DNA of 64,000 nt from Candidatus Hadarchaeales archaeon (GTDB lineage: Archaea; Hadarchaeota; Hadarchaeia; Hadarchaeales; WYZ-LMO6). Made by a program: the position numbers and the translations under genes. Shown here piece after piece: positions 11,591 through 27,192 of this stretch (within the stretch, counting starts at the first letter, position 1; each line of letters opens with the position of its first letter). The notes under the pieces were generated by a model. It had not been told where the DNA came from. It searched no databases and saw only the letters and a program-made list of their open reading frames with translations. Location: the NCBI GenBank assembly GCA_038736355.1, contig JAVYML010000001.1, positions 186,001 through 250,000 of the forward strand, read 5' to 3'.

Positions 11591-12025
11591 TTGCCCCCCC
11601 TCTGGCTCTTCCCCCTCCTCTCAGCCTTCCCCTTCTTCGAGGGCAGGTACGCCCTTCCCCTCGCCATCCTCTGGGGTCTCTCCCCCCTCACCGCCTACTT
11701 CCTCTGCACCCTTCCCAACCTAGCCGTCATCCCGGCCATCCTGCTTGCCCTGGAGAGGATGGTACCTCCCCTGAGGAGGAGGTGGGAATGGGTGGACAAC
11801 TTCTTCAGGCTGATGGTCAGGAAAAAACTCAGGAAAAAGCACTTCCTCGCCCTCTTCACCTTCGTCTCCCTACCCCTTCCAGGAACCGGGGCCTACACCG
11901 GAACGATCCTAGCCTTCATGCTCGGGATGAGGGGATGGAAACCCGCTCTCACCGTGGCCCTGGGAGTGCTCACTGCCAATGCCCTAACCGCCCTCCCCGC
12001 CACCGGTCTCTCCCTCTGGCTTTAA
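11591..12025 (+). CDS. Small multi-spanning membrane protein (COG2426, small multidrug export family)
   Basis: 144 residues with a TTG start just after the Toprim stop. Four hydrophobic segments and the central FVSLPLPGTGAYTGT motif match the PF06695/COG2426 family, annotated as putative small multidrug exporters, although transport has little experimental support. The last 42 bp overlap the 3' end of the convergent hypD. Confidence 0.72.
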   Translation: MPPLWLFPLLSAFPFFEGRYALPLAILWGLSPLTAYFLCTLPNLAVIPAILLALERMVPPLRRRWEWVDNFFRLMVRKKLRKKHFLALFTFVSLPLPGTGAYTGTILAFMLGMRGWKPALTVALGVLTANALTALPATGLSLWL

Positions 12026-13102
12026 CCTGCCCCTCCCGTACTTGTACTCGATGGCACAGGAACCCTCCGAAGAAACCATGCACGGTCCCACCGGGCTCCT
12101 GGGTGTACAGACCTTCCCGAAGAGGGGACAATCGGGGGGATCGAGGAGACCCCTCAGCACCCTGTCGCACCTGCAGGAGGGATGGGGCTTGAACTCCCTT
12201 CCCTCCAGCTCCTTCAGCTCGTCCTCGTACCTCTTCCTGGCATCATACTCTTCGAATTCCTCCTTGAGGGCCATGCCAGACTTCGGAATCACGGGAAAGC
12301 CCCTCCAGTCCAGATCGAAGGGCTCGAAAACTTCCTCCATTACCCTGAGTGCCTTCACATTGCCCTCCGGTCTCACCGAGCGTGTGTATTCATTTTTGAC
12401 CCCCACTTCCCCCTTTTGGATCATCCTCGCCAGGAGGTAAACCCCCATCAACAGGTCGAGGGGTTCGAAACCCGCCACCACCTGGGGGATTCCGTACTTC
12501 TCCGCTATCTCCTCGTAGGGCTTGGTACCTATCACGGTGGAAACATGCCCCGGTTCTATCAGCCCCTGAATCTTGGTCTCACCCATCTCCAGGAGGGCCT
12601 TGATAGCCGGGGGGATGTAACGATGACAGCAAAGGATGGAGAAGTTAGGGGGAGGTCTTCGGAGGAGGGTGACGGCCGTGGAAGGGGCGGTGGTTTCGAA
12701 ACCTATGGCCAAGAAAACCACCTCCTTCTTCGTTTTCTCCGCAAGTCCCACCGCATCCCTGATGCTGTAAACCACTCTCACCTCTGCCCCCTCTCCCCTG
12801 AGCCCCGCGAGCGAACCACTTTCCCCCGGCACTCCCACCATATCCCCAAAAGTTGCCACCACCTTTCCCTTCCTTGCCAGCAAGAGGGCCTCCTCTATCT
12901 CCCTCTGGGTGGTCACACAAACGGGACATCCTGGTCCCTGCCTTATCTTGATCCCACAGGGTTCCAGAAGGCGATCCAAACCGTACCTCACGAGGGTATC
13001 CTGGTGGGTCCCGCACACGTGCATCAGGAAGAGGTTCAACCCCATCTTCCTGAGTTCCCCCACGATCCTGCTCGCGGTCTCCCTATCCCTGAACCTGAAC
13101 AT
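11984..13102 (-). CDS. hypD: Hydrogenase maturation factor HypD
   Basis: 372 residues. HypD is the iron-sulfur scaffold on which Fe(CN)2CO is built with HypC, HypE and HypF for NiFe hydrogenases. The conserved Cys motifs CGTHQD and GPGCPVCVT are present, together with FGDMVGVPG, the GFETTAP motif and the C-terminal Cys cluster (CRCDRVLRG). It lies 2 bp after hypC in a run with the protease and the hydrogenase structural genes. HypE, HypF, HypA and HypB are not in this window. The C-terminus overlaps the convergent membrane-protein gene by 42 bp. Confidence 0.96.
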   Translation of the reverse strand: MFRFRDRETASRIVGELRKMGLNLFLMHVCGTHQDTLVRYGLDRLLEPCGIKIRQGPGCPVCVTTQREIEEALLLARKGKVVATFGDMVGVPGESGSLAGLRGEGAEVRVVYSIRDAVGLAEKTKKEVVFLAIGFETTAPSTAVTLLRRPPPNFSILCCHRYIPPAIKALLEMGETKIQGLIEPGHVSTVIGTKPYEEIAEKYGIPQVVAGFEPLDLLMGVYLLARMIQKGEVGVKNEYTRSVRPEGNVKALRVMEEVFEPFDLDWRGFPVIPKSGMALKEEFEEYDARKRYEDELKELEGREFKPHPSCRCDRVLRGLLDPPDCPLFGKVCTPRSPVGPCMVSSEGSCAIEYKYGRGRLKPEGETGGGEGG

Positions 13103-13104
13103 GC

Positions 13105-13323
13105 TCAGCCCTGCGAGAGGAGTTCCTGCCAGAGCCTCAGGCTCTCCCTCGCCTCCTCCTCGTCTAAGACTTGGATGGCAAAACCGGCATGGACGATCAC
13201 GTACTGCCCCACCTCCACCTCCACGAGGGAGATGTCCACTTCCCTCAGGGTGCCATCCCCGAAGTCCACCTTGGCGAGCTCACCCTTCTTCTCCACCACC
13301 CTCGCCGGAATGGCCAGACACAT
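13105..13323 (-). CDS. hypC: Hydrogenase maturation chaperone HypC
   Basis: 72 residues starting MCLAIPARV, where the Cys after the initiator Met is the iron-ligand-binding residue. The YVIVHAGFAI segment is also typical. HypC carries the Fe(CN)2CO unit between HypD and the hydrogenase large subunit. Its start abuts the protease stop codon (13324) and hypD follows after 2 bp, so the maturation genes are translationally linked. Confidence 0.96.
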   Translation of the reverse strand: MCLAIPARVVEKKGELAKVDFGDGTLREVDISLVEVEVGQYVIVHAGFAIQVLDEEEARESLRLWQELLSQG

Positions 13324-13824
13324 CTACCTTCCCTCCCCTTCCCCGCATAAATCCCTCAGCACGAGGGAGAGGGTATCGGCCAGCCTCTCGGCCGCCTCCT
13401 CCAGCTCCCTGGTCATTCCTTCCCCGAAATCCGTATCCCCGGGCTGGACACAGAGGAGGGCCACTTTGCATCCCACCACTTCCCTCACGTATTCGCAGAA
13501 GATCCTGAGGGGGAGGAGATGCGTGGAAACGGTTTCTACGGGTAGCTCTTCCGAAGTCAAGAACCTGCTTTCCCCCGGTCTCAGCCCCAAGAGGGCTGCG
13601 TCCACGAGGAGGAGATGGCTGGGCCTGACCCTCTCCACCTCCTCCAAGAAATTCTCCGCCACCGTTTCGCATTCCAGCAATTCCACCCCCTTTCCCACCC
13701 TTCCTTCCATCTTCCTCACAACCTCCAGTCCCACCGCGTCGTCCTTTCTGAGGGGATTACCTATTCCCATCACCATGGCCTTTCTGCAACCCGCAAACCA
13801 TTCCCTGAGCTCCCTCTCCATCAT
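13324..13824 (-). CDS. Hydrogenase maturation endopeptidase (HycI/HyaD/FrcD family)
   Basis: 166 residues. The family motif MGIGNPLRKDDAVG contains the metal-binding Asp, and VDAALLG and STHLLPL carry further ligands. These proteases remove the C-terminal peptide of the NiFe large subunit after nickel insertion. The substrate is most likely the neighbouring large subunit, which still has a 26-residue tail after its last DPCxxCxxH motif. It is 30 bp downstream of that gene and directly upstream of hypC. Confidence 0.9.
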   Translation of the reverse strand: MMERELREWFAGCRKAMVMGIGNPLRKDDAVGLEVVRKMEGRVGKGVELLECETVAENFLEEVERVRPSHLLLVDAALLGLRPGESRFLTSEELPVETVSTHLLPLRIFCEYVREVVGCKVALLCVQPGDTDFGEGMTRELEEAAERLADTLSLVLRDLCGEGEGR

Positions 13825-13854
13825 AGAAGGGGGTAGGAAGGAAGGAAAAGACTT

Positions 13855-15312
13855 TCAGGGTCTCTTGAGGGTGTAAAGGAGGTTGCGGTCCTTATCGTAG
13901 ATCTTTACCTCTAGGGGCATCTTGCCCAGGGCGAAGTGGGTGGCACAGGCGTAGCAGGGATCGTAGGCCCTGAAGGCCATTTCAATCATGTTCAAGATCC
14001 CATCCGTGACCTTCCCTCCAGAAATGAGGGCCTTGGCAGCATCCCTTATGGACATGCAGATGGGAGCCACATTGTTGGTGGTGGCCACGATGAGGTTGGC
14101 CTTCTTGATCAAACCTTCCTCCGTGAGTTGGTAGTGATGGTACAGGGTCCCCCTGGCCGCCTCCACTACCCCCACACCTTCCCCTGGAGTCCCCACCGGA
14201 TTCCTCACTTCCTTGCTGGTGATCTCAGGATCCTGGGCAAGCTCCAGTGCCCTCTCGCAGGCATAGAGGAGCTCTATCAGCCTGGCCCAGTGGAAGGCCA
14301 GGGTGGAGTGTACGGGTTTTCCTCCCAGCGTTTCGTACATCCTCTCGTACTCCTGCTGGGCAAGGGGTGTGGCCATCCCATCGGCGGCATTTAACCTTGC
14401 CAGTGGACCCACTCTGTAAATACCGCTGTCGGGACCGTCCACCAATCCCTTCCACCCCACCTTCTTCAAGTAGGTGAACTTCACGTAAGTCCACTCCTCC
14501 ACGTGCTCCCCTATCACATCCAGGTACTGGGATGGTGCAAACTTTACAAACTCCCTGCCATTGGGATCCACCACCCTGATCTTCCCGTCGTAGAAGTTCA
14601 CGCGGTTCTTCTCATCGACCAATCCCATGTAGTAGGTCCTCAGGGTGTAGGCATCACTCTTTATCAGCTCCACGTATTTCTGGTTCTTCAAAACGACCTG
14701 ATCGAAGATCTGGAGGGCCTTTTGGGCAAAGTCCACGCAGGACCTGGCCATCTTCTCTATTTCCTTCCTCTCTTCCTCGCTCAAGGGTTTGCTCACCCCT
14801 CCGGGCAAGCCGCACACGGGATGGGTGGCCTTTCCACCCAGGATGGCCGTAATCCTCTGACCATAGGCCCTGTGTTTGATCACTTCCTTCCCCACTTCCA
14901 GCCCCACCTTCTTGATCACTCCCAGGATGTTCCTCTCGGCCGGTGGAGCATCCGGACCCACCACGAAGTCTGGTCCCCCTAGATAGAAGAAGTGCAGGGT
15001 GTGGTCGTAGATGTAATAACCCGAATAGATCAGCTCCCTGAGCTTCTTGGCCGCGGGCGGCGGATCCACGTGGAAGGCTGCATCCAGGGCCTTCGTGGAG
15101 GCCATGTGGTGGGCCACCGGACAGACACCACAGATCCTGGAGGTGATTTGTGGCATCAGTTCCGCCCTTCTTCCCTCACAGAAACGCTCGAAGCCCCTCA
15201 GCTCTGGAACCTGGAGGTAAGCGTTTGCCACGTCACCCTTCTCGTCCAAGAAAATCGAGATCTTTCCGTGGCCTTCGAGTCTGGTGATGGGATCTATGGT
15301 GATGACCTTCAT
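13855..15312 (-). CDS. NiFe hydrogenase large (catalytic) subunit, group 3-like
   Basis: 485 residues. The two nickel-binding Cys pairs are present: RICGVCPVAHH (Cys 61 and 64) and DPCYACATH (Cys 453 and 456). A 26-residue tail follows His 459, the expected cleavage point for the maturation protease. The sequence resembles the methyl-viologen-reducing/sulfhydrogenase alpha families (group 3), which are cytoplasmic. The second nickel pair is Cys, not selenocysteine. The start overlaps the small-subunit stop by 4 bp. Confidence 0.94.
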   Translation of the reverse strand: MKVITIDPITRLEGHGKISIFLDEKGDVANAYLQVPELRGFERFCEGRRAELMPQITSRICGVCPVAHHMASTKALDAAFHVDPPPAAKKLRELIYSGYYIYDHTLHFFYLGGPDFVVGPDAPPAERNILGVIKKVGLEVGKEVIKHRAYGQRITAILGGKATHPVCGLPGGVSKPLSEEERKEIEKMARSCVDFAQKALQIFDQVVLKNQKYVELIKSDAYTLRTYYMGLVDEKNRVNFYDGKIRVVDPNGREFVKFAPSQYLDVIGEHVEEWTYVKFTYLKKVGWKGLVDGPDSGIYRVGPLARLNAADGMATPLAQQEYERMYETLGGKPVHSTLAFHWARLIELLYACERALELAQDPEITSKEVRNPVGTPGEGVGVVEAARGTLYHHYQLTEEGLIKKANLIVATTNNVAPICMSIRDAAKALISGGKVTDGILNMIEMAFRAYDPCYACATHFALGKMPLEVKIYDKDRNLLYTLKRP

Positions 15313-16301
15313 TTCTTCTTCACCCTCCTTCCCAGCACGGAAGCCGGTAGGGTATACATGTAGAAGGTTCCCACGGGATCCACTATCTGATCCACCAACT
15401 TCTGGGGATCATACCCTGCCTCTCTTTCCCCCTCCACCCCGAGAATGGAGGAAAGGGCGCTGATCATGGCCGCCCCCTGGTCAACCTCATTGGGGCAGGG
15501 ACCATGGCATCCGGTGCACGGCATGTTGCCGTTTAAGCACCTGGCCTCGCACCCACCCCTAGTAGCCGGACCCATGCAGATGATACCCTGGGCGAGGAAA
15601 CACTTCTCCGGATCCAGCTCTACCTCGTAAGGTCTTTTCACCTGAGAAATCGAGAGTTTCTCGGGCTTCGTCTTGTTCCTAGGACACTCATCACATACAG
15701 ACTTCAGGGGAGCCAGTACCGACCCCCTCGGTGGGAGTTCACCCTTGGCTATGGCCTCCACCGCCTTCAGGATGAGGTTGGGAGGAGGCGGGCAACCGGG
15801 GAGGTAGTAATCTACCTCCACCGTTTGATCCAGGGTTTTGACCGTGTCGTAAAACTCCGGAAGCTTCAGCTCACCCTCCTTTACCCTGGTGGAAGTCTTG
15901 GGGACTATTCGCTGGGGATTCTCGGTGGAGGGGGATTCCAGATAGGCCCTCGCAAAGATCTCCTCCCTGTCCGCCAAGTTGGCGAGACCAGGGACTCCTC
16001 CGGTGTAGGAACAGGCCCCAAAGGCCACCAACACCTTTGACTTTTTCCTGAGGAGCTTCGCCAGGTGCTCCTGCTCTTCCGTCCTCACAGCTCCGTTGAA
16101 GAAGCAAACGTCTATGAAGCCATCGGGCATGGCTTCTACATCCTTGTACTTCACATCGAGGGCCACAGGCCAAAAGACGATGTCGGCCAACTCCACCACA
16201 TCAAGAATTTTTTCATCGATATCCAGAACCCCTATCTCACAACCCCCACAACTGGCCGCCCAGTAGAAGGCAAACTTCAATTTCTGCTTCGGCTTGGCCA
16301 T
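15309..16301 (-). CDS. NiFe hydrogenase small (iron-sulfur) subunit, group 3-like
   Basis: 330 residues. It begins with WAASCGGCEIGVLDID, the proximal-cluster CxxC typical of hydrogenase small subunits, then GACSYTGGVPG and the YYLPGCPPPPN motif. C-terminal Cys clusters (CDECPRN, CEARC, CTGCHGPCP) would hold two more iron-sulfur centres. No twin-arginine signal or membrane anchor is present, so the enzyme is cytoplasmic. The closest look is MvhG-like. No MvhD, HdrABC, F420- or NAD-binding subunit is adjacent, so the electron acceptor is unknown. Confidence 0.92.
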   Translation of the reverse strand: MAKPKQKLKFAFYWAASCGGCEIGVLDIDEKILDVVELADIVFWPVALDVKYKDVEAMPDGFIDVCFFNGAVRTEEQEHLAKLLRKKSKVLVAFGACSYTGGVPGLANLADREEIFARAYLESPSTENPQRIVPKTSTRVKEGELKLPEFYDTVKTLDQTVEVDYYLPGCPPPPNLILKAVEAIAKGELPPRGSVLAPLKSVCDECPRNKTKPEKLSISQVKRPYEVELDPEKCFLAQGIICMGPATRGGCEARCLNGNMPCTGCHGPCPNEVDQGAAMISALSSILGVEGEREAGYDPQKLVDQIVDPVGTFYMYTLPASVLGRRVKKK

Positions 16302-16364: not shown

Positions 16365-17360
16365 TCAGGAGATGTCGTTCATGTAAAGCAGCTTGTTCTG
16401 GGGGAGGTAGGTAATGGTCATGGCATCCCCTATCACCAAGGGATCTTTCATCTCGAACTCCAGCACATCCCCAGGGGAGAAGTCGATCCACGTCTCTCCC
16501 CGTACCCACATCCTGAGATTTCTGATCCTGTGCTCGGTGTTATCCCCACCCGCCCTAGCCCCCCAGCCGAAGAGACTCTTTCCCTTCCTGTTGGCCGCCT
16601 TGTAATCAATGTACCTAATCCTGTTATCCAAGCGGTTGTCCAGGTACATCTCTATGACCATTCCATCGAAAACGATCCTGGCTTCGTGCCACCGGTTATC
16701 ATTGATGGAGTGCATGTTGTCCGCCGCCAGTCTTTCCCCTCCATACCAAACCTCCAGCTTATCGCTGTTTTCGTTGTAAGCGAACACGTACCCCCCGGCT
16801 GGGGGCCAATTCTCGTTCTCGGGAGTAACACCACAATAGGCGTAAAACCATGTCGAACCCTCTCCCCGACCTCCCCCTGCCCAGAATTGAAATTCCACCA
16901 CGAAACTGGAGGGGGGTGGGGACAAAGTGTACTCCAGTTGTCCGTTCTCTCTGGCGGAAAGGGTGAGCCTAACCCATCGGTTCTCCGGAAGATAGAGGGC
17001 ACTGCGCTTGAGGACCCCCAAAGGTGGGGAGTCCATGTCCTCGTAAATGAGATACTCAGCCCTTTTGCCATTGAGGCGTGGATAAAGGGCTTCCACTTCC
17101 CTTCCGCTCTTCTTCACCACCAAATCCCCCCAGTAGAAGGCCCCGTCCCTTATGAGGAAGGCGTTCCTTATGATGTCTCCCCCTAAGTGGTGGATGACCA
17201 GTCTTTGGCTTCTCCATTCAAATCCATCCACACCCAGCTTGGCATCTAGAGTCCTCACTGAAAAGCTCACCCCACCCAGAACCACGATGACCGCCGTTGC
17301 GATGGAAAAGACTATGGCGATGAGGATGATCTCCGCGATGAGGGGGGAGACTCCCTTCAC
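16365..17360 (-). CDS. Type IV pilin-like protein with a LamG/concanavalin-like domain
   Basis: 331 residues. The N-terminus MKGVSPLIAEIILIAIVF is an archaeal pilin class III signal: a short basic stretch, a G|VSP processing site and a 22-residue hydrophobic helix. The rest is extracellular. From about residue 120 to 300 beta-rich motifs such as VVEFQFWAGG, WFYAYCGV, NRWHEARIVFDG and IEMYLDNRLDN fit a LamG-like jelly roll used to bind sugars. The gene lies between the hydrogenase and acyl-CoA synthetase with no other pilus genes nearby. Adhesion is inferred, not shown. Confidence 0.72.
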   Translation of the reverse strand: MKGVSPLIAEIILIAIVFSIATAVIVVLGGVSFSVRTLDAKLGVDGFEWRSQRLVIHHLGGDIIRNAFLIRDGAFYWGDLVVKKSGREVEALYPRLNGKRAEYLIYEDMDSPPLGVLKRSALYLPENRWVRLTLSARENGQLEYTLSPPPSSFVVEFQFWAGGGRGEGSTWFYAYCGVTPENENWPPAGGYVFAYNENSDKLEVWYGGERLAADNMHSINDNRWHEARIVFDGMVIEMYLDNRLDNRIRYIDYKAANRKGKSLFGWGARAGGDNTEHRIRNLRMWVRGETWIDFSPGDVLEFEMKDPLVIGDAMTITYLPQNKLLYMNDIS

Positions 17361-17419: not shown

Positions 17420-19135
17420 ATGGTTACCTACAGTGACCGTCCATGGATTAAAATTTATGAGCAAATAGGTCTTCCCTATAAATTCGACTATCCCAAGATA
17501 CCACTTTTCGAACTCATCGATCGGGCGGCTGCGGAGTATCCCGAAAGCAAAGCCATGGTGTACTTCGATAGGGAGTATACCTATGCCCAGTTGAAGTCCT
17601 ACACGGATCGGCTGGCCACGGCCCTTAGCAAGAAGATGGGGATAAAGAAGGGGGATGTGGTGGGAGTACAGCTCTTCAACTCTCCCCAGTTCATCATAGG
17701 AGTCTACGGTTCCTTAAAGGCCGGGGCCATTGTAGCCCTCATGAGCCCCCTCCTCCCCACCCCGGAGTTGGAGTACGAGATCAGCACTTCTGGCGCTAGG
17801 GTGGTCATTACCGACGAGTCCAGAGTGGAGGAAATAAAGGCCATGAAACACCGCACCAAGCTGGAACAAATCATTGTTACCTCCGTGAAGGATTTCTCTC
17901 CCTCGGAAGATCCCGTGCCTCCGAAGGTGGAAGGAGCCATCCAACTGCGCCAACTCCTCTCGGAAACGGAAGCGGACCCGCCCAAGCTGGAAATAGATCC
18001 GGTAGAAGATGTTGCCCTCCTCTTCTTCACCGGGGGTTCCACCGGCATTCCCAAGGGGGTGATGCTCACCCACTACAACCTCACCACCAACATCGTCCAA
18101 ACCTTCGGTCCTACGGCGGCAGGTATGCTGGAACCGAACAAAGGAAACTTTTCGGTGATGGGATGTCTGCCCTTCTTCCACATTTATGGTTTCACTTGCG
18201 CCATGAACGTGGCCCTTTATTGGGCGGGATGCCTCCTGCTCGTTCCCGATGCCAGAGATACGAAGATGATTTACGAGCTACTGGTAAAATACCGTCCCCT
18301 TTTGATGCCCGGGGTTCCTACCCAATTCATGAGGTTGCTCCAAGAAAAGAATGTGGACCTTTCCGAACTGAAGGGATGTGTACCCTATAGCGGTGCTGCT
18401 GCCCTTCCCCCAGAGGTTTCCAAACAATTTGAGGAGAAAGCGGGTGTATTGGTCAGCGAGGGTTATGGGCTTTCGGAAGCCAGTCCCGTCACCCATTCCA
18501 ACTTCGTGGCCATCCTCAAGGGTGCGGGGATCGATCTTGGGTTACCGGTAAAGCTGGGATCCATAGGCATACCCGTGCCCGATACGGATGTTAAAATAGT
18601 GGACATAGAAACGGGGACGAAGGAAATGCCCGTGGGGGAGCCAGGGGAAATGATCATCAAAGGACCACAGATAATGAAGGGTTACTGGCCCACCCCGGGC
18701 AGTGGTTTAAGGGATGGATGGCTGTATACGGGGGATGTGGCGAAGATGGACGAAGATGGCTACTTCTACATCGTCGACCGCACGAAAGACATGATCAACG
18801 TCTCGGGTTTGAAGGTCTATGGAAGGGTGGTGGACGATGTTCTCTACGAACATCCGGCTGTGGCCAAGGCAGCTGCTGTGGGCATACCCGATCCCGAGCG
18901 CCCCGGAAGCGAAAGGGTGAAGGCCTTCATCGAACTAAAGGAAGGATACGAACCCAGCGAGGAGCTGAAGGAGGATATTCTCAGACATTGTAGGGAGAGG
19001 CTTCCGCCCTACGCCGTCCCCAAATTCATAGAATTCAGGAAGGAACTTCCCCTTACCGTTACAGAGAAGGTTTTCAAACGGAAGCTCAGGGAAGAAGAAA
19101 TAGAGAAGATGAAGAAGGCTGGGCTCCTTAAGTAA
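17420..19135 (+). CDS. Acyl-CoA synthetase (AMP-forming, long-chain type)
   Basis: 571 residues. It activates a carboxylic acid to acyl-CoA through an acyl-adenylate. Motifs in order: the P-loop-like FTGGSTGIPKGVMLTHYNL, SEGYGLSEASPVTH, GEMIIKGPQIMKGYW, DGWLYTGDVAKMDEDGYF and DRTKDMINVSG. The catalytic Lys lies in LTVTEKVFKRKL near the C-terminus. The chain-length preference cannot be read reliably. It is convergent with three SCP2-type genes and lies beside AOR and a FadH-like reductase, suggesting a shared acyl or lipid role. Confidence 0.93.
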   Translation: MVTYSDRPWIKIYEQIGLPYKFDYPKIPLFELIDRAAAEYPESKAMVYFDREYTYAQLKSYTDRLATALSKKMGIKKGDVVGVQLFNSPQFIIGVYGSLKAGAIVALMSPLLPTPELEYEISTSGARVVITDESRVEEIKAMKHRTKLEQIIVTSVKDFSPSEDPVPPKVEGAIQLRQLLSETEADPPKLEIDPVEDVALLFFTGGSTGIPKGVMLTHYNLTTNIVQTFGPTAAGMLEPNKGNFSVMGCLPFFHIYGFTCAMNVALYWAGCLLLVPDARDTKMIYELLVKYRPLLMPGVPTQFMRLLQEKNVDLSELKGCVPYSGAAALPPEVSKQFEEKAGVLVSEGYGLSEASPVTHSNFVAILKGAGIDLGLPVKLGSIGIPVPDTDVKIVDIETGTKEMPVGEPGEMIIKGPQIMKGYWPTPGSGLRDGWLYTGDVAKMDEDGYFYIVDRTKDMINVSGLKVYGRVVDDVLYEHPAVAKAAAVGIPDPERPGSERVKAFIELKEGYEPSEELKEDILRHCRERLPPYAVPKFIEFRKELPLTVTEKVFKRKLREEEIEKMKKAGLLK

Positions 19136-19153
19136 AAAAAGAAAGAAAAAAGT
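19136..19153 (-). terminator. T-rich terminator after SCP2 gene a
   Basis: On the - strand the sequence immediately after the stop codon at 19154 is a run of T tracts (TTTTTTCTTTCTTTTTTT), the usual signal for archaeal RNA polymerase release. It also separates this gene from the convergent acyl-CoA synthetase. Confidence 0.6.
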
Positions 19154-19717
19154 TCAAACGTATTCGTCCACGAAGATCGTTGGCACTTGTGAAGCGATCT
19201 TTCCCATCTGTTGCGTCGCCTTGATGTACCTCATCACCTTGCTCATGTCTCCCTGGAGTTTCATCTTGCCAGTGAGCACCAGCTTGGTGGCATCGCTCTC
19301 GGCCTTCGCCAGCTTCTTCCAAGAATCGTAAGAACCTATCAGTTTGAAGCCCACCTGCACCTCGTTGGGATCCTTCAGCAGGCGCATACCCGTGCACTTC
19401 CCATCCTTGAGCCCGACGTACACATAGATGGTCTTCCCTTTCAGGTATTCCTTCATGACGGCCTTGAATTCCTCCTGGATTTTCTTGGCCTCCTCAAAGG
19501 TAATTCCTGCCTTTTCCGCGAGCTGCTTGATTTCCGCATCAGACATCGTTTCCGCCTTCTGCAACTTTTCCACGGGGACCTCGTCTATCTGGAAGATGAA
19601 ATCTCCGTTCCATCCCACGCCCCATCCCTTGCCAGCCTCGGCCATTACCGGATCGCTGTTAAGTCTTTTGACATATTCCTCGTTCCAAGCTTGGGTTCCA
19701 AAAGCCAACTTTGTCAT
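19154..19717 (-). CDS. SCP2 sterol-carrier-like protein a
   Basis: 187 residues. A single SCP2-type lipid-binding domain is suggested by GWNGDFIFQIDEVP, a central helical insert, the KDGKCTGMRLLKDPNEVQVGF strand region and DATKLVLTGKMKLQGDMSKVM near the C-terminus. SCP2 domains bind fatty acyl chains, acyl-CoA or other lipids in a hydrophobic tunnel. ATG 19717 is used; an in-frame ATG two codons earlier is equally possible. The C-terminal half is closely matched by the next gene. A likely TATA (plus-strand CCATAAATAC) lies near 19748-19757. Confidence 0.75.
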   Translation of the reverse strand: MTKLAFGTQAWNEEYVKRLNSDPVMAEAGKGWGVGWNGDFIFQIDEVPVEKLQKAETMSDAEIKQLAEKAGITFEEAKKIQEEFKAVMKEYLKGKTIYVYVGLKDGKCTGMRLLKDPNEVQVGFKLIGSYDSWKKLAKAESDATKLVLTGKMKLQGDMSKVMRYIKATQQMGKIASQVPTIFVDEYV

Positions 19718-19788
19718 TCTCATCCCCCTTTTAGGCTTCCTACACCTCCATAAATACCCTTCGGGACTCCCCTCTGGAACTTCAAGGG

Positions 19789-19809
19789 AAAAAAGAAAAA
19801 AGGGAAAAA
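19789..19809 (-). terminator. T-rich terminator after SCP2 gene b
   Basis: The - strand reads GTTTTTCCCTTTTTTCTTTTTTCC just beyond the stop at 19816, an archaeal-style T-tract terminator. It separates the two SCP2 genes, so each probably has its own transcript. Confidence 0.55.
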
Positions 19810-19815
19810 CTATGT

Positions 19816-20313
19816 TTAGACCATCTCGTCCAAGAATTCCGTCGGAATCTGTGAAGCGATCTTTCCCATGAGCTGCGTCGCCTTGATGTACCTCATCACC
19901 TTGCTCATGTCTCCCTGGAGTTTCATCTTGCCAGTGAGCACCAGCTTGGTGGCGTCTGCTTCTCCCTTCGCCAGCTTCTTCCAAGATTCATAGTCTCCTA
20001 TTAGCTTGAAACCGGCTTGCACTTCGTTGGGATTCTTAATGACCTTCGCACCCGTACACTTCCCATCCTTCAGACCTATCCAAGTATATACCGTGGTACC
20101 AGAGACATACTTCTCCATCATTTCCTTCATGTACTTCTTCAGATCCCCTTCGGGCAGTTGCTCTATTTTCTCCACTGGCACCTTGTCTATCTGGAAGATG
20201 AAATCTCCGTTCCATCCCACGCCCCATCCCTTGCCTGCTTCTTCCAGTTCTTTGCTCTCATTCAGTTTCTTGACATATTCCTCGAGCCATTCAGGTGTCG
20301 GAAAAGGTACCAT
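19816..20313 (-). CDS. SCP2 sterol-carrier-like protein b
   Basis: 165 residues, the tandem paralogue of the gene at 19154-19717. Both share GKGWGVGWNGDFIFQID and the block from LVLTGKMKLQGDMSKVM to the C-terminus. It lacks part of the central helical insert, so it is 22 residues shorter. It has its own promoter, ribosome site (GAGGTGG) and T-tract end. An 80-nt stretch is identical in the two genes, including silent positions. It likely binds a lipid or acyl ligand in the cytoplasm; no catalytic residues are expected. Confidence 0.76.
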   Translation of the reverse strand: MVPFPTPEWLEEYVKKLNESKELEEAGKGWGVGWNGDFIFQIDKVPVEKIEQLPEGDLKKYMKEMMEKYVSGTTVYTWIGLKDGKCTGAKVIKNPNEVQAGFKLIGDYESWKKLAKGEADATKLVLTGKMKLQGDMSKVMRYIKATQLMGKIASQIPTEFLDEMV

Positions 20314-20360
20314 TCGTCCACCTCTTTTTTTGGTTTACACTTTTCTTTCAGTCCATCCTC

Positions 20361-20370
20361 TATAAAACCT
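20361..20370 (-). promoter_or_regulatory. TATA box for SCP2 gene b
   Basis: On the - strand GGTTTTATAGAGG lies about 50 bp before ATG 20313. A start about 25 bp downstream leaves a leader containing the GAGGTGG ribosome site. Confidence 0.5.
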
Positions 20371-20376
20371 TTCCCT

Positions 20377-20985
20377 TCAAACTTTCTCTTTAACCAAAAG
20401 TTTGGGAAGGAGTTTCATGAGGGGCGCAAGCCTCATCGCGTCTGCTACCTTACCTTCCACCTTGTATCTACCCATTAAAGCACCCCAGATGGGATCCACC
20501 TTTCCCGTCAGGAGCCCCATCAAATCCGCGGTAGAGGCAAAGACGGTGAGATCTGCCATCATCGCTCCCCTTCCACCCCCAGACAGTTTTCCCTCACTCA
20601 CCTTGAAGTGACCAACCATGGGAGAATCCGTTGCTTTGAAGTTCACAATGAGAGTTTTCATTTCCTCTAGCTTTTTCCTGATCTCGGGATCCTCCTCAGC
20701 CAAAACCCCCAATCCTTCCCAAAGCACATCCAGAAATCTGGAGGAGGCTTGAGGTACTTCCCTCACAAAGCTCGCCAAATCCAGCGTTTCCATCTTCTCC
20801 ACCATCTTGGAGAGGAGATCGGGAACGGCCCTCAGGAATTCCCTCACCCCTACGCTCTGAATGGTATCCATCAAAAAGGAAAGACTAGACTTCAGTTCTT
20901 CCTCTGATAGAGTTAGGGCCCCTTCCACCACCGATCTGAGGTCCTCCCCCACTCTCTCCGATAGGATTAATTGGCGCCTCCTCAT
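20377..20985 (-). CDS. SCP2-like lipid-binding protein c
   Basis: 202 residues. The first half is helical (residues 1-110, with many Leu and Glu). The second half resembles an SCP2 domain: GHFKVSEGKLSGG, DLTVFASTADLMGLLTGKVDPIWGALMGRYKVEGK, DAMRLAPLM. The Leu-Thr-Gly-Lys plus small-residue pattern near the end is the part shared with the other two SCP2 proteins. It is divergent from an MFS transporter with about 40 bp between starts. The gene is more distant from genes a and b than they are from each other. Confidence 0.68.
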   Translation of the reverse strand: MRRRQLILSERVGEDLRSVVEGALTLSEEELKSSLSFLMDTIQSVGVREFLRAVPDLLSKMVEKMETLDLASFVREVPQASSRFLDVLWEGLGVLAEEDPEIRKKLEEMKTLIVNFKATDSPMVGHFKVSEGKLSGGGRGAMMADLTVFASTADLMGLLTGKVDPIWGALMGRYKVEGKVADAMRLAPLMKLLPKLLVKEKV

Positions 20986-21024
20986 TTTATCGTTGTGGAA
21001 AAAGGTAGATTGGGAGCCTCGCTG

Positions 21025-22209
21025 ATGTATGCTGCCATCTTTGCCGGAGGGGGAATCATAGGTTCGCTTGCCTCCTCCTTTTTCCTCATGATGGAAGACC
21101 TAGGAACCAATCCACTGGGAATGGGCTTTCTAGCCATCGCCCCCCTTTTGGGTCTTTCCCTGCTCGGTCTCTCCCTGATGCTCTGGTGGAAAAGACTCGT
21201 CACGAAAGAAGGTTTTGGAAGGATGGTGGCCTTGCTCATGGCTGGCACCGCCCTAGCTGGTCTCTCCTGCCCTCTAAAGAATTTCTGGCTCCTAGGAGCC
21301 TCCAGAATCCTTCTCGGAACCTGCTCTATGGGACTCGTCCTCCTCCTCCTGGTGCTGAGCCTAGAGTGGTTCATGGAAAGACTCAACCTCATGGTACTCA
21401 TGGGCATCCTCTCCCTGCTCCTCGGCACACTCTTCTCATCCTTCTTTGGTTCCCTTATCACCCATCTGCTTGGAGGCTGGGAGAAACTCCCCCTCTTTTT
21501 GGGATTGCTCGCAGGGGGATGTTTTCTCCTCTGGCTCCTCCTCGGACCCTTCCTCCCTCCCCTCCCAGATGGGGGCCATACAACAACCGAAACCTTTCAA
21601 ACCCTCAAGAATCCTTCCCTTTTCTATTCTTCCCTTATGCTCTACACCCTTCTGGCCTACCTGGGAGTCTTCTCCTTCATCTTCGTGAAACTTCCAGGGA
21701 GCTGGGAACTGGCCCTTTTGAGTAAGGAGATGATCTTTTCCCTTCCCTTCTATTTGGCAGCGGCAGCCCACTCCCTTCTGGTGGTCCTCGCCTCTCCCCT
21801 CTTCCTCTCCCTCGCCTCCGAAAAGAAGAGGAGAAGATCCATGTGTCTGATCTCGGGCTTACTCTCACCCCTTTTCGGTCTCCTAACCTTCAACCTACCC
21901 TTTTCAGATGGCTGGATGATCCTCATCCTAGAAAGCATAACGCTGGCCCTCCTCCAACTCTCCATCCTTCTCCCCCTCTGGATTCTCCTGTTGCAGGAAC
22001 TGCCCGGCGTGAGTCTAGAAAACTTCATCCCCTCCATGGGCGGCATCCTTTTCCTTTCTGGAGCCATGGGGGGCTCAGCCACCCTAATCCTGGGATGGGC
22101 TCTTTTCCAAAGCTGGTCAACCTTTCGGATGGTGATCAACCTACTCGTCCTGAGCTGGGGGGCCAGCGCCCTAGGCGGATATTTCCTCACTAGGGAAGGA
22201 ATAGAGTAA
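21025..22209 (+). CDS. MFS-type transporter (divergent)
   Basis: About 394 residues with roughly twelve hydrophobic segments and a charged middle loop (SEKKRRRS around residue 270). Loop residues such as WWKRLVTKEGFGRM after TM2 resemble the MFS A motif only loosely. ATG 21025 is preferred because GGGAG lies 8 nt upstream and the first membrane helix follows at once. In-frame GTG 20995 and TTG 20971 are alternatives; TTG would overlap SCP2 gene c. The neighbours suggest a fatty or aromatic acid, or a lipid, as substrate, but this is inference. Confidence 0.68.
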   Translation: MYAAIFAGGGIIGSLASSFFLMMEDLGTNPLGMGFLAIAPLLGLSLLGLSLMLWWKRLVTKEGFGRMVALLMAGTALAGLSCPLKNFWLLGASRILLGTCSMGLVLLLLVLSLEWFMERLNLMVLMGILSLLLGTLFSSFFGSLITHLLGGWEKLPLFLGLLAGGCFLLWLLLGPFLPPLPDGGHTTTETFQTLKNPSLFYSSLMLYTLLAYLGVFSFIFVKLPGSWELALLSKEMIFSLPFYLAAAAHSLLVVLASPLFLSLASEKKRRRSMCLISGLLSPLFGLLTFNLPFSDGWMILILESITLALLQLSILLPLWILLLQELPGVSLENFIPSMGGILFLSGAMGGSATLILGWALFQSWSTFRMVINLLVLSWGASALGGYFLTREGIE

Positions 22210-22211
22210 AC

Positions 22212-22219
22212 TTTTTTTT
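22212..22219 (+). terminator. T-tract terminator after MFS gene
   Basis: Eight consecutive T follow the stop codon of the transporter within 3 bp, in a 32-bp gap before the AOR start. Read-through into AOR remains possible. Confidence 0.4.
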
Positions 22220-22241
22220 ATCCCACCGCAAAGAAACTACG

Positions 22242-24098
22242 TTGCCCGGATATATGGGGAAGCTCCTGAGGGTGGATCTCTCCCACGGAAAGATAGTGGA
22301 AGAAGAGGTCAAAGAAACTGAAGTGAGAAAGTTTTTGGGTTGCAGGGGTCTGGGGGCCCGCTATCTCTTCGAAGTCAGAAAGGGAGCAGATCCCCTGGGA
22401 CCCGAGAACAAACTCATTTTCATGACAGGTCTTCTCACGGGAACAGGCTTTCCTACCGCTGGAAGATACGATGTGGTTTCCAAATCTCCTCAGACGGGTT
22501 TTTACGGTCATGCCAACTCCGCCGGTTTTTGGGGAGTGGACTTCAAGCGCACGGGTTTCGATGGCATCATCTTTGAGGGGATTTCTCCTAACCCCGTCTA
22601 CCTGTTCGTGGAGGACGGGAGGGCTGAACTGAGGGATGCCAAGCATCTTTGGGGCAAGGGTGTGCATGAAACCACCAGAATGTTGAAGGAGGAGCTGGGT
22701 GAGAGGGTCAACGTGGCAGCCATAGGGCCTGCGGGGGAGAACTTGGTCAGGTATGCTTCCATCCTCAACGATTACAACAGGGCCGCGGGGAGATGCGGCA
22801 TGGGGACAGTGATGGGCTCCAAAAAGCTCAAGGCCGTTGCCGTGAGGGGAACGAAAAAAGTGGAAGTGGCAGACCCAGACAGGTTGAAGGAGCTGACCAA
22901 GGAAGTCATAGAGTTGGCCGGTCAAAACATGTTGAAGACCAGTCTGGAAACCTTTGGAACCAACTCGGGCTTCGATTTGGTAAACGCCATGGGTGGAATG
23001 CCCACGAGGAACTGGCAGGAAGGAGTCTTCCCCGCTGGGGAAAAGATCAACGGACCTGCCCTTTCCGACAAGGTCTTGGTGGGAACCAAAGGATGTTATG
23101 TCTGCCCCATCCATTGCGCCAGACTCTCGGAGGTGAAAAGTGGACCCTACGCCTGCAAGACGGAGGGACCGGAGTACGAATCGGTTGGGGCCTTGGGATC
23201 CATGTGCGGGGTGGATAGCATGGAAGCCATCACCTATGCCCACCACCTGTGCAACGATTATGGGATGGACACGATAAGCACGGGAAGCACGATCGCCTTC
23301 GCCATGGAATGTTTTGAGAAGGGCATCCTGACGAAGGAGGATACTGGCGGTTTGGAGCTGAGGTTCGGTGATGCCGATACCATGGTAAAACTGGTACACC
23401 TGATAGCCCGCAGGGAAGGAATAGGGAACCTTCTAGCCGAAGGAACGAAGAGGATGTCGGAGAAACTGGGGAAGGGATCGGAGAGGTTCGCCATGCACTC
23501 GAAGGGACTGGAGTTCGCGGCCTATGATCCAAGGGCGGCCAAAATCGTGGGGCTCGCCTATGCCACCTCCAACAGGGGAGGATGCCACATCAATGCCTAC
23601 GTCCAGCTTCAAGCCTTCATAGGAGCCCCACAGCCCCTGCTTCCCGAAGACATAAGAGAACCCTTCTTCGATCCCCTCTCGGAAGACCCCATTTTGGGAA
23701 GGGTGGTGAAGGAAACTGAGGATGCCTATGCCTTCGTGGAGGCACTTGGGATGTGCAAGTTTCTGGGCTGGATGATAACCGCCGACAAGGTGGTGGAAGC
23801 CGTGGTGGCTGCTACGGGATGGAAGGATTTCGATGAAAGGGAACTGAGGAGATGTGGGGAAAGGATCTACAACTTGGAGAGGATGTTCAACGTGAGGGAA
23901 GGTTTGAACCGTTCCCACGATTCCCTACCCAAGCGGCTACTGGAAGAACCCCACCCCTCCGGACCGGCCGCTGGACAGGTGGTACATCTGGAGCCCATGC
24001 TCGATGCCTATTATCAATACCGTGGATGGGACAGGAACGGCATACCCACCAAGGAAAAGCTGGCGGAGCTCGACCTCCTAGACCTTCCGATGGCCTGA
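22242..24098 (+). CDS. aor: Aldehyde:ferredoxin oxidoreductase (AOR family)
   Basis: 618 residues, full length, starting with TTG (family proteins begin at this PGYMGKLLRVDLS). AOR enzymes carry a tungsten bis-pterin and a [4Fe-4S] cluster and interconvert aldehydes and carboxylic acids with ferredoxin. The cluster Cys motif CYVCPIHCARL and the distal Cys in GMCKF are present. Other marks are GRYDVVSKSPQTG, CGMGTVMGSKKLKA and EGPEYESVGALG. It lies 9 bp upstream of a FadH-like enoate reductase. The substrate class (aliphatic or aromatic) is not determinable. Confidence 0.93.
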   Translation: MPGYMGKLLRVDLSHGKIVEEEVKETEVRKFLGCRGLGARYLFEVRKGADPLGPENKLIFMTGLLTGTGFPTAGRYDVVSKSPQTGFYGHANSAGFWGVDFKRTGFDGIIFEGISPNPVYLFVEDGRAELRDAKHLWGKGVHETTRMLKEELGERVNVAAIGPAGENLVRYASILNDYNRAAGRCGMGTVMGSKKLKAVAVRGTKKVEVADPDRLKELTKEVIELAGQNMLKTSLETFGTNSGFDLVNAMGGMPTRNWQEGVFPAGEKINGPALSDKVLVGTKGCYVCPIHCARLSEVKSGPYACKTEGPEYESVGALGSMCGVDSMEAITYAHHLCNDYGMDTISTGSTIAFAMECFEKGILTKEDTGGLELRFGDADTMVKLVHLIARREGIGNLLAEGTKRMSEKLGKGSERFAMHSKGLEFAAYDPRAAKIVGLAYATSNRGGCHINAYVQLQAFIGAPQPLLPEDIREPFFDPLSEDPILGRVVKETEDAYAFVEALGMCKFLGWMITADKVVEAVVAATGWKDFDERELRRCGERIYNLERMFNVREGLNRSHDSLPKRLLEEPHPSGPAAGQVVHLEPMLDAYYQYRGWDRNGIPTKEKLAELDLLDLPMA

Positions 24099-24107
24099 GG
24101 GAAGAGG

Positions 24108-26024
24108 ATGAATCCCTTTCCCGTTCTCTTTTCCCCTATTTCCATAGGTAGGATGGTGGTGAGGAATCGCATCGTGATGCCCGCCCTCACCACCGGCTAT
24201 GCCTTTGGGGAGGTCACGGACCAGCTCAAGCACTATTTCGAGGCCAGGGCAAAGGGAGGAGCAGGTCTCATCGTGGTGGGAATAGCCGCCGTGGAAAAGG
24301 GAACGGAATACGTGATCTCTGCCTCCGACGACTCCTACATCCCCGGTCTGAGGGAACTGGCGGAGACCATCCACGCCCACGGGGCCAAGACCGCCCTCCA
24401 GCTTTGGCATCCAGGAAGGTATGAGTTCGTGGAGATCACGGGGAGGGAACCCGTCTCTGCCTCCGACGTCCCTCCCCCCATCTTCAGTAGGGTGAAGCCC
24501 AGGGCCCTCACCGTTCCGGAAATCAAGAGGATAGAGGAGGAGTTCGCACAGGCGGCGGGGAGGGCGAAGGAAGCTGGCTTCGATGCGGTGGAATTCATAG
24601 GTTCAGCAGGCTATTTGATAAGCCAGTTCCTCTCCCCCGTCACCAACAGACGCACCGACGAATACGGTGGATCCTTGGAAAACAGGATGAGGTTCCTCCT
24701 CGAAATCGTGGAGCTGACCAAGGAAGTGGTGGGAAAGGACTTCCCGCTGATGTGCCGCCTCTCCGGGGACGAACTCATCCCGGGAGGGAATACGCTTTCC
24801 GAGATGAAAATAGTGGCCAGGAAGCTGGCGGAAGTGGGCATTTCCGCCATCAACGTTACCGCGGGATGGCATGAATCGAGGGTTCCCATGATCACCATGG
24901 AGGTCCCGAGGGGAGGATACGTGTACCTGGCGGAGGGTATCAAAGAAGCCCTGAAGGGAACGGAGGTGAGGGTGGCGGCCAGTAACCGCATCAACGAGCC
25001 CTTCCTAGCCGAAAGGATCCTGAGGGAGGGAAAGGCGGATTTGATCTCCATGGGAAGGGCACTGGTAGCCGATCCCGAGTTCCCCAGGAAGGCACAAGAG
25101 GGAAGGGTGGAGGACATCGTCACCTGCGTGGCCTGCTGTCAGGGTTGTTTCGACAGGCTCTTCGAGGGAAGGCCCCTAACGTGCATGGTCAACCCTGGTG
25201 TGGGAAGGGAGGCCGAAGTGAAGGTGGAACCGGCGGTCAAGAAGAAAAGGGTGCTGGTCGTGGGGGGAGGACCGGGAGGACTGAAGGTGGCGGAAATGGC
25301 CGCCCTCAGAGGCCATCAAGTCATCCTCTGCGAGGAAGATGGGGAGCTGGGAGGACAGCTCAACTTGGCTTCCATCACACCAGGAAGGGAGGAACTGGGA
25401 ACGGTGGTAAGGGAACTGGCCCTCCATGCCAAGAAGGCTGGAGTGGAAATAAGGCTGAGAACGAAGGTGGATGCCGACATGGTGGAGGAAATAGAACCGG
25501 ATGCCGTGGTATTGGCCACCGGTGCTCTGCCCATCGTTCCTTCTTTCCCCGGCGTTGACCTTCCCCACGTAGTACAGGCTTGGGAGGTTTTGAAGGGGAG
25601 GGAAGTGGGAAAGAGGGTGGTGGTAGTGGGAGGAGGAGGGGTGGGATGCTATACTGCCCATTACCTCTCTTCCAGGGGAAGGGAAGTGACTCTTCTGGAA
25701 ATGCTGGAGAAAGTGGCTGGTGATGTTGGTATCACCACCCGTTGGATCCTGAGGGAGAACCTGAAGAAGGGAGGCGTGAGGATCTTCACTTCCACCAAAG
25801 TGAAGGAAATCCGCCCCGAAGGGGTGGTGGCCACGAGAGGGGAGGTGGAAGAGGTTTTCCCAGCGGACTCGGTGGTGCTGGCCGTGGGGTCCAGACCCAA
25901 CTCGGGTTTGGTCGAGGAACTGAGGGACAAAGTGGAGGAACTTTACCTAGTGGGGGACTGCCTCCAACCCAGAAAGGCCTTGGATGCCATTCGCGAAGGG
26001 TGGGAGGTGGGTCTCAAGCTCTAG
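24108..26024 (+). CDS. FadH/enoate reductase-type flavo-iron-sulfur oxidoreductase
   Basis: 638 residues. The N-terminal TIM-barrel FMN domain spans about 1-340; its active-site segment FIGSAGYLISQFLSP resembles E. coli FadH (Tyr in GYL). A [4Fe-4S] motif follows, CVACCQGCFDRLFEG with a further Cys in LTCMVNPG. Then comes an FAD domain (VLVVGGGPGGLKVAEMAALR) and an NAD(P)H domain (VVVVGGGGVGCYTAHYL). Such enzymes reduce dienoyl-CoA or 2-enoates. Being 9 bp after AOR, the two probably share a transcript and perhaps a substrate chain. The last 11 bp overlap the convergent MFS gene. Confidence 0.92.
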   Translation: MNPFPVLFSPISIGRMVVRNRIVMPALTTGYAFGEVTDQLKHYFEARAKGGAGLIVVGIAAVEKGTEYVISASDDSYIPGLRELAETIHAHGAKTALQLWHPGRYEFVEITGREPVSASDVPPPIFSRVKPRALTVPEIKRIEEEFAQAAGRAKEAGFDAVEFIGSAGYLISQFLSPVTNRRTDEYGGSLENRMRFLLEIVELTKEVVGKDFPLMCRLSGDELIPGGNTLSEMKIVARKLAEVGISAINVTAGWHESRVPMITMEVPRGGYVYLAEGIKEALKGTEVRVAASNRINEPFLAERILREGKADLISMGRALVADPEFPRKAQEGRVEDIVTCVACCQGCFDRLFEGRPLTCMVNPGVGREAEVKVEPAVKKKRVLVVGGGPGGLKVAEMAALRGHQVILCEEDGELGGQLNLASITPGREELGTVVRELALHAKKAGVEIRLRTKVDADMVEEIEPDAVVLATGALPIVPSFPGVDLPHVVQAWEVLKGREVGKRVVVVGGGGVGCYTAHYLSSRGREVTLLEMLEKVAGDVGITTRWILRENLKKGGVRIFTSTKVKEIRPEGVVATRGEVEEVFPADSVVLAVGSRPNSGLVEELRDKVEELYLVGDCLQPRKALDAIREGWEVGLKL

Positions 26025-27192
26025 CCCTCCCCACCTTCGAAAGAGCAGCGGAGAAAAGGGAAATCGCGCAGAAAATGGCTCCCAAGAAGAGGAAGGCTGG
26101 ATCGTAACCTCGCTTGGAAAGGGGACTGAAAAGGGCCACGGTGATCACGAGGCCTCCGAGGTTGCCCGAGGTGAGGATCACACCCGAAGCACCACCACTG
26201 TATTTGGGTCCTATCTCCGGCAGGAGGGGAGGATAGGCCAACAGGAGGGGAGGAACACCTCCCGCCATCACACCTCCCACGAACACCAGCAACCAAGTGG
26301 AAAAACCATAGGCCTCAAGCCAAGCCAAGAAGAGGAGGGGGCCGGAGAGGAGGGAACAGAGAATGAGGAAGGCCCTGAACTTTCCCGTTCGGTCCGCCAG
26401 GGGAGGCCATATCAGGTTTCCCACCACCATTCCCACCACGGCAAGGGCGGAAAGGGCTCCTGCCTCCCCGGCCCCTACCCCAAAAACTTCCTGAACGGCG
26501 TGGGTCAAACCACCCGTGTAGGAAACGAAGGCTCCGAGGAAAAGGAACTGGGAAAAAGCGAGCAACCAGACGTTGCGACTCCTCATGGCGTGGGATAGGC
26601 TTTCCTTTAAAGGTACACCCCTATGCCCACCCGTGGGTGGTTCTCTCGCGAAGAAAAACCAGAAAAGGGAGGAGAAGAACATTCCCATTCCCGTACAGAA
26701 GAAGGCCCATCTCCAAGAGGGAAAGAGGGCACCCGTGAAGAGTCCCGCGGAGATTCCTAGCCCCATCGAACTCACGTATATTCCTGAGGCCGATCCCGTT
26801 TCCCCTTCGGGGAACCATTCCCCCACCATCTTGGGAAGGTTGGGTACCACCAAACCCATCGAAGCACCTACCAGAAAAGTTAGGAACCAGAGGAGGAGGA
26901 AACTCTGGGAAAGGGCCCTAGCCGTTGCCACCACCGAGCCCAGCAGGATGCCCGCGAGAACCGTTCTCCTCACCCCGAGCTTATCCCCCACTGCCCCTCC
27001 CGGTATGCTGCTCAAGGCTGCTGCCAGCGTAGGGGCGGTGAGGAGGAGGTAAAGGTGATCCGTGGAAAGGCCTAAGGAAGAGGAAAGCTCTTCCTCCAAG
27101 GGAGGAAGGATGTACCAGCTGTAGTTTACGAAGAAGATCAAAAGCCATGCCAGCGTTAGGATGACCCATCTGTATGGAGAGGCTTTCAACAT
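26014..27192 (-). CDS. MFS transporter (12 TM, organic-acid/nitrate type)
   Basis: 392 residues with twelve membrane helices. The A motif GGAVGDKLGVRRTVLAG follows TM2, and the second-half copy is PPLADRTGKFRAFL. GLVVPNLPKMVGEWFPEGE resembles nitrate/nitrite and organic-anion MFS members. It is convergent with the FadH-like gene, overlapping by 11 bp, and divergent from pth2. With the transporter at 21025 it brackets the AOR/FadH genes, so it may import their substrate. The substrate is not proven. Confidence 0.88.
   Translation of the reverse strand: MLKASPYRWVILTLAWLLIFFVNYSWYILPPLEEELSSSLGLSTDHLYLLLTAPTLAAALSSIPGGAVGDKLGVRRTVLAGILLGSVVATARALSQSFLLLWFLTFLVGASMGLVVPNLPKMVGEWFPEGETGSASGIYVSSMGLGISAGLFTGALFPSWRWAFFCTGMGMFFSSLFWFFFAREPPTGGHRGVPLKESLSHAMRSRNVWLLAFSQFLFLGAFVSYTGGLTHAVQEVFGVGAGEAGALSALAVVGMVVGNLIWPPLADRTGKFRAFLILCSLLSGPLLFLAWLEAYGFSTWLLVFVGGVMAGGVPPLLLAYPPLLPEIGPKYSGGASGVILTSGNLGGLVITVALFSPLSKRGYDPAFLFLGAIFCAISLFSAALSKVGRARA

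Follow-up and report, generated by a model that had tools for sequence, protein, structure and literature searches.

Gene content and conservation of the module

The window analysed here is a 64,000-nucleotide stretch (contig JAVYML010000001.1, positions 186,001 to 250,000) of the 1.27-Mb genome (designated G000) of an uncultured, heat-loving archaeon from the Hadarchaeota family Ca. Cerberiarchaeaceae, the name used in PMC10811742 for GTDB family WYZ-LMO6. The window carries a module of eight genes, which encode an AMP-forming acyl-CoA synthetase (ACS), three SCP2 proteins, two major facilitator superfamily (MFS) or MFS-like proteins, an aldehyde:ferredoxin oxidoreductase (AOR) and a FadH-like reductase. 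These identities had been proposed in a first-pass annotation and were borne out by Pfam searches, with MFS1 falling just below its cut-off. The features are as follows, the last being a neighbour outside the cassette.

17420..19135, plus strand: AMP-forming ACS, long-chain FadD-like (PF00501, 298 bits, E 1e-88)
19154..19723, minus strand: SCP2a, tandem paralogue of SCP2b (PF02036, E 1.4e-9; start corrected from 19984)
19816..20313, minus strand: SCP2b (PF02036, E 1e-10)
20377..20952, minus strand: SCP2c, with a helical N-terminal extension of ~90 residues (PF02036, E 2e-9)
20971..22209, plus strand: MFS-like membrane protein, MFS1 (MFS_1, 32.8 bits, just under the Pfam cut-off of 33.4)
22242..24098, plus strand: tungsten-type AOR (AFOR_N, E 1e-79; AFOR_C, E 1e-145)
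24108..26024, plus strand: FadH/BaiCD-type FMN-FAD-4Fe4S enoate/dienoyl-CoA reductase-like enzyme (PF00724, Oxidored_FMN, E 1e-73; PF07992, Pyr_redox_2, E 1e-36)
26014..27192, minus strand: MFS transporter, MFS2, a relative of organic-acid carriers (MFS_1, 151 bits, E 6e-44)
16365..17360, minus strand: pilin-like surface protein with a laminin-G-like domain (Pilin_N and Laminin_G_3, both slightly under Pfam cut-offs)

The sequenced family mates are WYZ-LMO6, S1_Bin_METABAT__384_1 and S4B3_HD70 (G001 to G003, the three relatives referred to below), of which S4B3_HD70 corresponds with near certainty to the Ca. Cerberiarchaeum oleivorans genome of PMC10811742. All eight module proteins are conserved in relatives at 50-92% identity, and the open reading frames are therefore real genes rather than chance ones. 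Comparison with the relatives and inspection of codons revealed a spurious N-terminus on the SCP2a reading frame (19154-19984), the real start being an ATG at ~19723. For SCP2c, the GTG at 20952 is the probable start codon; the annotated start of MFS1 (20971) overlaps SCP2c, and its true start probably lies ~20 bases downstream.

Conservation of the neighbourhood, suggested earlier as a check, was confirmed in all three family mates, assembly breaks aside. The order pilin-ACS-SCP2-SCP2-SCP2-MFS-AOR-FadH-MFS-Pth2-ThiL is kept in G001, a member of the same genus, and is found in pieces in G002. In C. oleivorans, the first half stops at a contig edge past the MFS gene and has one a/b-type SCP2 rather than two, while a second contig opens with AOR (81% identity), followed by an acyl-CoA dehydrogenase, FadH (79%) and MFS2 (62%). 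Because of the contig break, we infer rather than observe that the two halves are contiguous in this genome.

The ACS belongs to the PF00501 superfamily and is 81-92% identical to its orthologues within the family. Its best NCBIfam matches are all long-chain-fatty-acid--CoA ligases, yet it scores under their equivalog cut-offs (best: NF005220, 434 versus 1116 bits), no long-chain FadD cut-off being reached. Compared with AMP-forming long-chain synthetases (FadD, NF005220), the match is full length, but the window enzyme falls in an archaeal clade of its own. Among its closest solved structures are those of feruloyl- and coumarate-CoA ligases as well as FadD. A role in aromatic-acid degradation is unlikely, as the ACS scores lower against benzoate types than against long-chain ligases in NCBIfam and the neighbourhood is otherwise free of aromatic-specific genes. 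Elsewhere in the same genome, another ACS gene lies by ABC-transporter genes (L063:2251-8820, contig C3), an arrangement also seen at L197 and L198 in genomes G293 and G242; judged by eye, the transporter resembles the branched-chain amino-acid type, which suggests acid uptake coupled to activation.

The predicted AOR contains AFOR_N and AFOR_C domains, four cluster cysteines and the active-site Glu and His, the functional roles of these cluster and active-site residues being established for AORs. It matches the tungsten enzymes of Pyrococcus furiosus (1aor) and 9mqx over its full length, and its CxxCxxxC..C, EGPEYE and RGGCH motifs align with 9mqx. The FadH-like enzyme shares with FadH (1ps9), BaiCD and NCR (6qkg) the domain order, the FMN, FAD and 4Fe-4S motifs and the catalytic Tyr and His. 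Against the E. coli-type FadH 1ps9 (E 2e-122), the GYL tyrosine, the GWHE histidine and four cluster cysteines align. Unlike the named FadH/BaiCD-type families, it lies under every NCBIfam equivalog cut-off tested; roles as BaiCD (564 bits against a cut-off of 825), mycofactocin OYE (561/793) and bilirubin reductase BilR (482/750) were accordingly rejected. MFS1 is 50-76% identical in the three relatives, and the NCBIfam matches of MFS2 are to oxalate/formate, lactate and aromatic-acid MFS subfamilies, all under cut-off.

SCP2 proteins and their association with AOR and ACS genes

All three SCP2 proteins exceed the curated PF02036 cut-off (38.1-42.2 bits versus 21.3; E 1e-9 to 1e-10). SCP2a is 70% identical to SCP2b, and a profile of the a/b subfamily matches the Thermus SCP2 structures 1wfr and 2cx7 (E ~4e-22). 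The AF2 model of SCP2c (pLDDT 87) has an SCP2 fold behind the helical extension, and Foldseek matched it to UbiJ-SCP2, AF1534 and rabbit SCP2 (E < 1e-4); the fold thus rests on a predicted model for SCP2c and on the sequence profile for SCP2a and SCP2b. Profile and fold are shared with the Thermus proteins, Archaeoglobus AF1534, the C-terminal domain of SdsA1 and eukaryotic SCP-2. By contrast, the ~90-residue N-terminal extension distinguishes SCP2c from these relatives, as do, for SCP2a and SCP2b, an extra insertion and a motif common to archaeal proteins linked to alcohol dehydrogenase (ADH) or AOR genes. The SCP2c model also resembles SCP2 domains in entries solved with alkyl ligands, namely SdsA1 (decanesulfonate or dodecanol) and mosquito SCP2 (C16 acid), a likeness that refers to ligands of the whole entries and not to an established ligand position within them.

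The earlier remark that SCP2 is uncommon in archaea held, since it was detected in 50 of 394 sampled archaeal genomes. Within Hadarchaeota, it was found in the four genomes of the window's family and in one other genome. The view of the locus as an acyl/lipid module with SCP2 proteins as likely carriers of hydrophobic intermediates was likewise supported by the comparisons below, although the carrier function is predicted from sequence. To our knowledge, archaeal SCP2 proteins have no established role. In Archaeoglobus fulgidus, transcripts for putative sterol carrier proteins are induced along with fatty-acid oxidation genes (PMC3949148), which is compatible with, but does not prove, a carrier role here by analogy. 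The window's genome has a further tandem pair of short SCP2 genes (L061:9970-10768, G000:C1:365008-365713), which is conserved in the family and has no directly adjacent acyl genes; judged by eye, it is flanked by transcription-initiation-factor-like and Sir2-type-deacetylase-like genes.

The same gene types were found together in other lineages. Among 322 archaeal genomes, the best match to the window AOR outside the family was in genome G119, from an unrelated archaeon (59% identity, the next being ≤51%), where AOR, ACS and an a/b-subfamily SCP2 are adjacent on one strand (L176). A maximum-likelihood tree, built without 1aor and 9mqx, placed the window AOR with the G119 enzyme and with an AOR linked to acr genes in Ca. 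Bathyarchaeota BA2 (support 100/100). The window ACS was sister to the G119 ACS (support 100/99, with the bootstrap not fully settled). An a/b-subfamily SCP2 gene adjoins an iron-containing ADH gene in G128 (L117), and G279 has an SCP2-FeADH-AOR run (L201); SCP2b is 36-46% identical to the SCP2 proteins at these three loci. Taken on gene order, the SCP2-ADH-AOR and AOR-ACS-SCP2 runs read as a predicted route from alcohol through aldehyde and acid to acyl-CoA.

Possible relation to alkane oxidation and proposed function

Ca. Cerberiarchaeaceae were described in 2024 as long-chain alkane oxidisers that use alkyl-coenzyme M (CoM) reductase (Acr) (PMC10811742). Hexadecyl-CoM was detected in culture for Ca. 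C. oleivorans, Aor was proposed to act between hexadecyl-CoM and acyl-CoA, FadD is encoded, and the use of fatty acids and alcohols was suggested for the family (PMC10811742). The first-pass statement that no archaeal pathway with this gene set had been described is thus only partly correct: a pathway in which alkanes are oxidised through Acr, with Aor and FadD taking part, had been proposed for the same family, but the main text of PMC10811742 makes no mention of SCP2 ("sterol"), of AOR/ACS/SCP2 clustering or of the ~490-residue family beside Acr described below. Searches of the literature, with limited coverage of subscription journals, found nothing relevant that connects SCP2 to Acr or to alkane oxidation in archaea.

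The genome holding the window contains divergent Mcr genes, with McrA domains at C1:55388-56749 and on contig C4. McrB and McrG domains were confirmed in G002 and BA2 and were seen by similarity on C4; the assignment to Acr rather than to methanogenic Mcr rests on PMC10811742. Among eight Hadarchaeota tested, McrA domains were restricted to the window's family, and acyl-CoA dehydrogenase matches numbered 4-10 per family genome versus 0-2 outside it. The four genomes outside the family had no McrA and, in three cases, no acyl-CoA dehydrogenase, the fourth having two matches. The window's own genome has six acyl-CoA dehydrogenase matches and one 3-hydroxyacyl-CoA dehydrogenase. Ca. C. oleivorans, of the same family, has Acr and acyl-CoA dehydrogenase genes as well as the window module.

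A second cluster in the window's own genome (L062) comprises paralogues of the AOR and of SCP2c, a ~490-residue protein, an NDP-forming acyl-CoA ligase (its domains shown for the G003 copy) and AcrA. Of the three AOR genes in this genome, two have an SCP2 locus less than 2 kb away, for which random placement gives a probability of 0.0008, the 2-kb limit having been picked after the data were seen. A further SCP2c relative lies between two acyl-CoA dehydrogenase genes in G003 (L067). In BA2, which belongs to a second phylum, acrA is flanked by two Pfam-level SCP2 genes, to one of which SCP2c is 43-44% identical, and a relative of the ~490-residue protein (68%) adjoins SCP2/acrA. AOR genes of the window clade follow acrB and acrG on the same contig, ~8-12 kb past acrA.

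These observations can be brought together in a scheme in which the module probably oxidises long-chain aldehydes (or alcohols) to acyl-CoA with the help of SCP2 proteins, so as to feed β-oxidation, possibly downstream of Acr. Long-chain fatty aldehydes would arise from alcohols, or from alkyl-CoM made by Acr. AOR, with ferredoxin, would convert the fatty aldehyde to the acid, which the AMP-forming ACS would convert to acyl-CoA, while the SCP2 proteins would pass poorly soluble intermediates (~C12-C16 and longer) between the enzymes. The acyl-CoA would then enter β-oxidation, the FadH-like enzyme would deal with double bonds, and the MFS proteins may import or export the acid. Substrates, direction and carrier role are inferred, as is the idea that the Acr pathway is served by the window module, either alongside the Acr-linked AOR paralogue or in its place. 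The scheme as a whole is supported by the synteny within the family, the acyl-CoA dehydrogenase inside the C. oleivorans module and the concordant AOR and ACS clades shared with G119. It is also supported by the SCP2-FeADH(-AOR) runs of G279 and G128, the own-genome AOR-SCP2-ligase-AcrA cluster, the concentration of McrA and acyl-CoA dehydrogenases in the family, the resemblance of SCP2c to alkyl-ligand structures, and the published hexadecyl-CoM, Aor and FadD (PMC10811742). The possible Acr link is drawn from gene context, because SCP2 genes flank acrA in BA2 and a window-clade AOR follows acrBG there.

Several points weigh against this scheme. The substrate class of the ACS is not readable from its sequence, given that no equivalog cut-off is reached, and the reversibility of AOR leaves a reductive direction possible. 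The genes do not form one operon, as ACS is on the plus strand, SCP2a/b/c on the minus, MFS1-AOR-FadH on the plus and MFS2 on the minus. No McrA was detected in G119 although the trio is present, which means that the trio is not specific to organisms that oxidise alkanes; the idea that SCP2 or the trio is tied exclusively to Acr was rejected on this ground and because many SCP2-bearing archaea lack a detected McrA. In addition, the BA2 AOR region (L160:8239-12336, contig LIHK01000056) has, following acrBG, a row of three AOR copies or fragments, of which one or more is interrupted by a stop, possibly through gene decay or assembly error.

The module may act on Acr products or on scavenged lipids, and both were considered. 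In a scavenging role separate from Acr, imported long-chain acids, aldehydes and alcohols would be activated for β-oxidation, and Acr products would use the AOR/SCP2/NDP-ligase set at acrA. The G119 trio, the SCP2-ADH-AOR run of G279, the separate own-genome cluster at Acr, the MFS proteins flanking the module and the fatty acid and alcohol use suggested for the family (PMC10811742) all fit such a role. It is less likely than the scheme above, as the AOR that follows acrBG in BA2 is of the window-type clade and the module ACS and SCP2 proteins are, among Hadarchaeota, confined to the Acr family apart from one unrelated SCP2 elsewhere.

The first-pass annotation had favoured uptake and reductive processing of a fatty, unsaturated or aromatic acid. 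AOR and FadH are able to run reductively, FadH reduces C=C bonds, and the Fe-ADH partners seen elsewhere can also reduce, so that imported acids might be converted, for example, to aldehydes or saturated products. Acid reduction by ferredoxin through AOR is unfavourable unless the product is removed, however, and the acyl-CoA ligase spends ATP on activating the acid. Given that the genome also encodes Acr and acyl-CoA dehydrogenases, that the C. oleivorans module itself includes an acyl-CoA dehydrogenase, and that AOR-ACS-SCP2 and SCP2-ADH-AOR runs occur elsewhere, this direction is very improbable. An aromatic or unsaturated acid substrate was not supported either, the relatives of the cassette fitting conversion of alcohol or aldehyde to acid and acyl-CoA. 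That unrelated genes merely stay together in four close genomes would agree with the mixed strands and with the limitation of the full arrangement to one family, but it scarcely accounts for the re-association of the same gene types in other lineages, the concordant AOR and ACS clades or the low random expectation for AOR-SCP2 adjacency, and we give it very little credence.

If SCP2-assisted oxidation to acyl-CoA is correct, archaeal SCP2 proteins would gain a suggested role and may contribute, so far unnoticed, to the breakdown of oil by archaea.

A ~490-residue protein family and genes around the module

A family of uncharacterised proteins of ~490-525 residues is encoded beside or inside Acr operons, outside the window. 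Copies lie at L062:8988-10460 (G000:C1:50990-52459), L167:3701-5278 (G000:C4), L137:9986-11458 (BA2) and L165:4009-5583. They occur inside acr operons (in G002, acrA-x-acrB-acrG-490-acrA) and beside SCP2, ACS or AOR genes. There are about four matches per Cerberiarchaeaceae genome and none in 390 other sampled archaea. A scan covering 84,980 species of bacteria and archaea added BA2 alone, but it relied on two short motifs and may miss divergent members. No relatives were found in Pfam, NCBIfam or PDB sequences; AF2 gave only a poor model (pLDDT 62), and the matches from fold searches were unconvincing (best Z 3.7, to LytR-CpsA-Psr proteins), which does not show that the fold is new.

The conversion of alkyl-CoM to acyl-CoA in archaea is an open step of anaerobic oil degradation, for which the AOR-ACS-SCP2 cassette, the acrA-flanking SCP2 proteins in a second phylum and the ~490-residue family are concrete candidates, the last by virtue of its position. 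A more speculative and on balance unlikely proposal is that AOR, acyl-CoA ligase, SCP2 and the ~490-residue family together make up the missing route in long-chain alkane-oxidising archaea, whereby the ~490-residue enzyme would free the alkyl group or oxidise it, the conversion would be completed by AOR and ligase, and SCP2 would carry the hydrophobic chain.

Downstream, the module is bordered by Pth2 and ThiL, the latter called from the sequence itself. Upstream, it is bordered by the pilin/laminin-G gene, followed by a Vhu-type hydrogenase and its maturation genes. The protein encoded at 16365-17360, in which a pilin-like N-terminus is fused to a laminin-G/ConA-like domain, adjoins the module in all three relatives and might serve at the cell surface in adhesion to oil or to partner cells. 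The adjacent region (11984-16301) encodes HypD, a HycI-type protease, VhuG and the large subunit of a Vhu-like NiFe hydrogenase, which matches VhuU at its C-terminus; a hydrogenase of this type near the module may bear on the question of the electron sink of Ca. Cerberiarchaeaceae. Farther away, a flavin reductase-rubredoxin fusion followed by an ODP-type β-lactamase-fold protein (5349-7222) is likely an oxygen-detoxification pair, and a 1010-residue β-helix protein with bacterial Ig-like/invasin-like domains is encoded at 39555-42587, in a GC-poor stretch.

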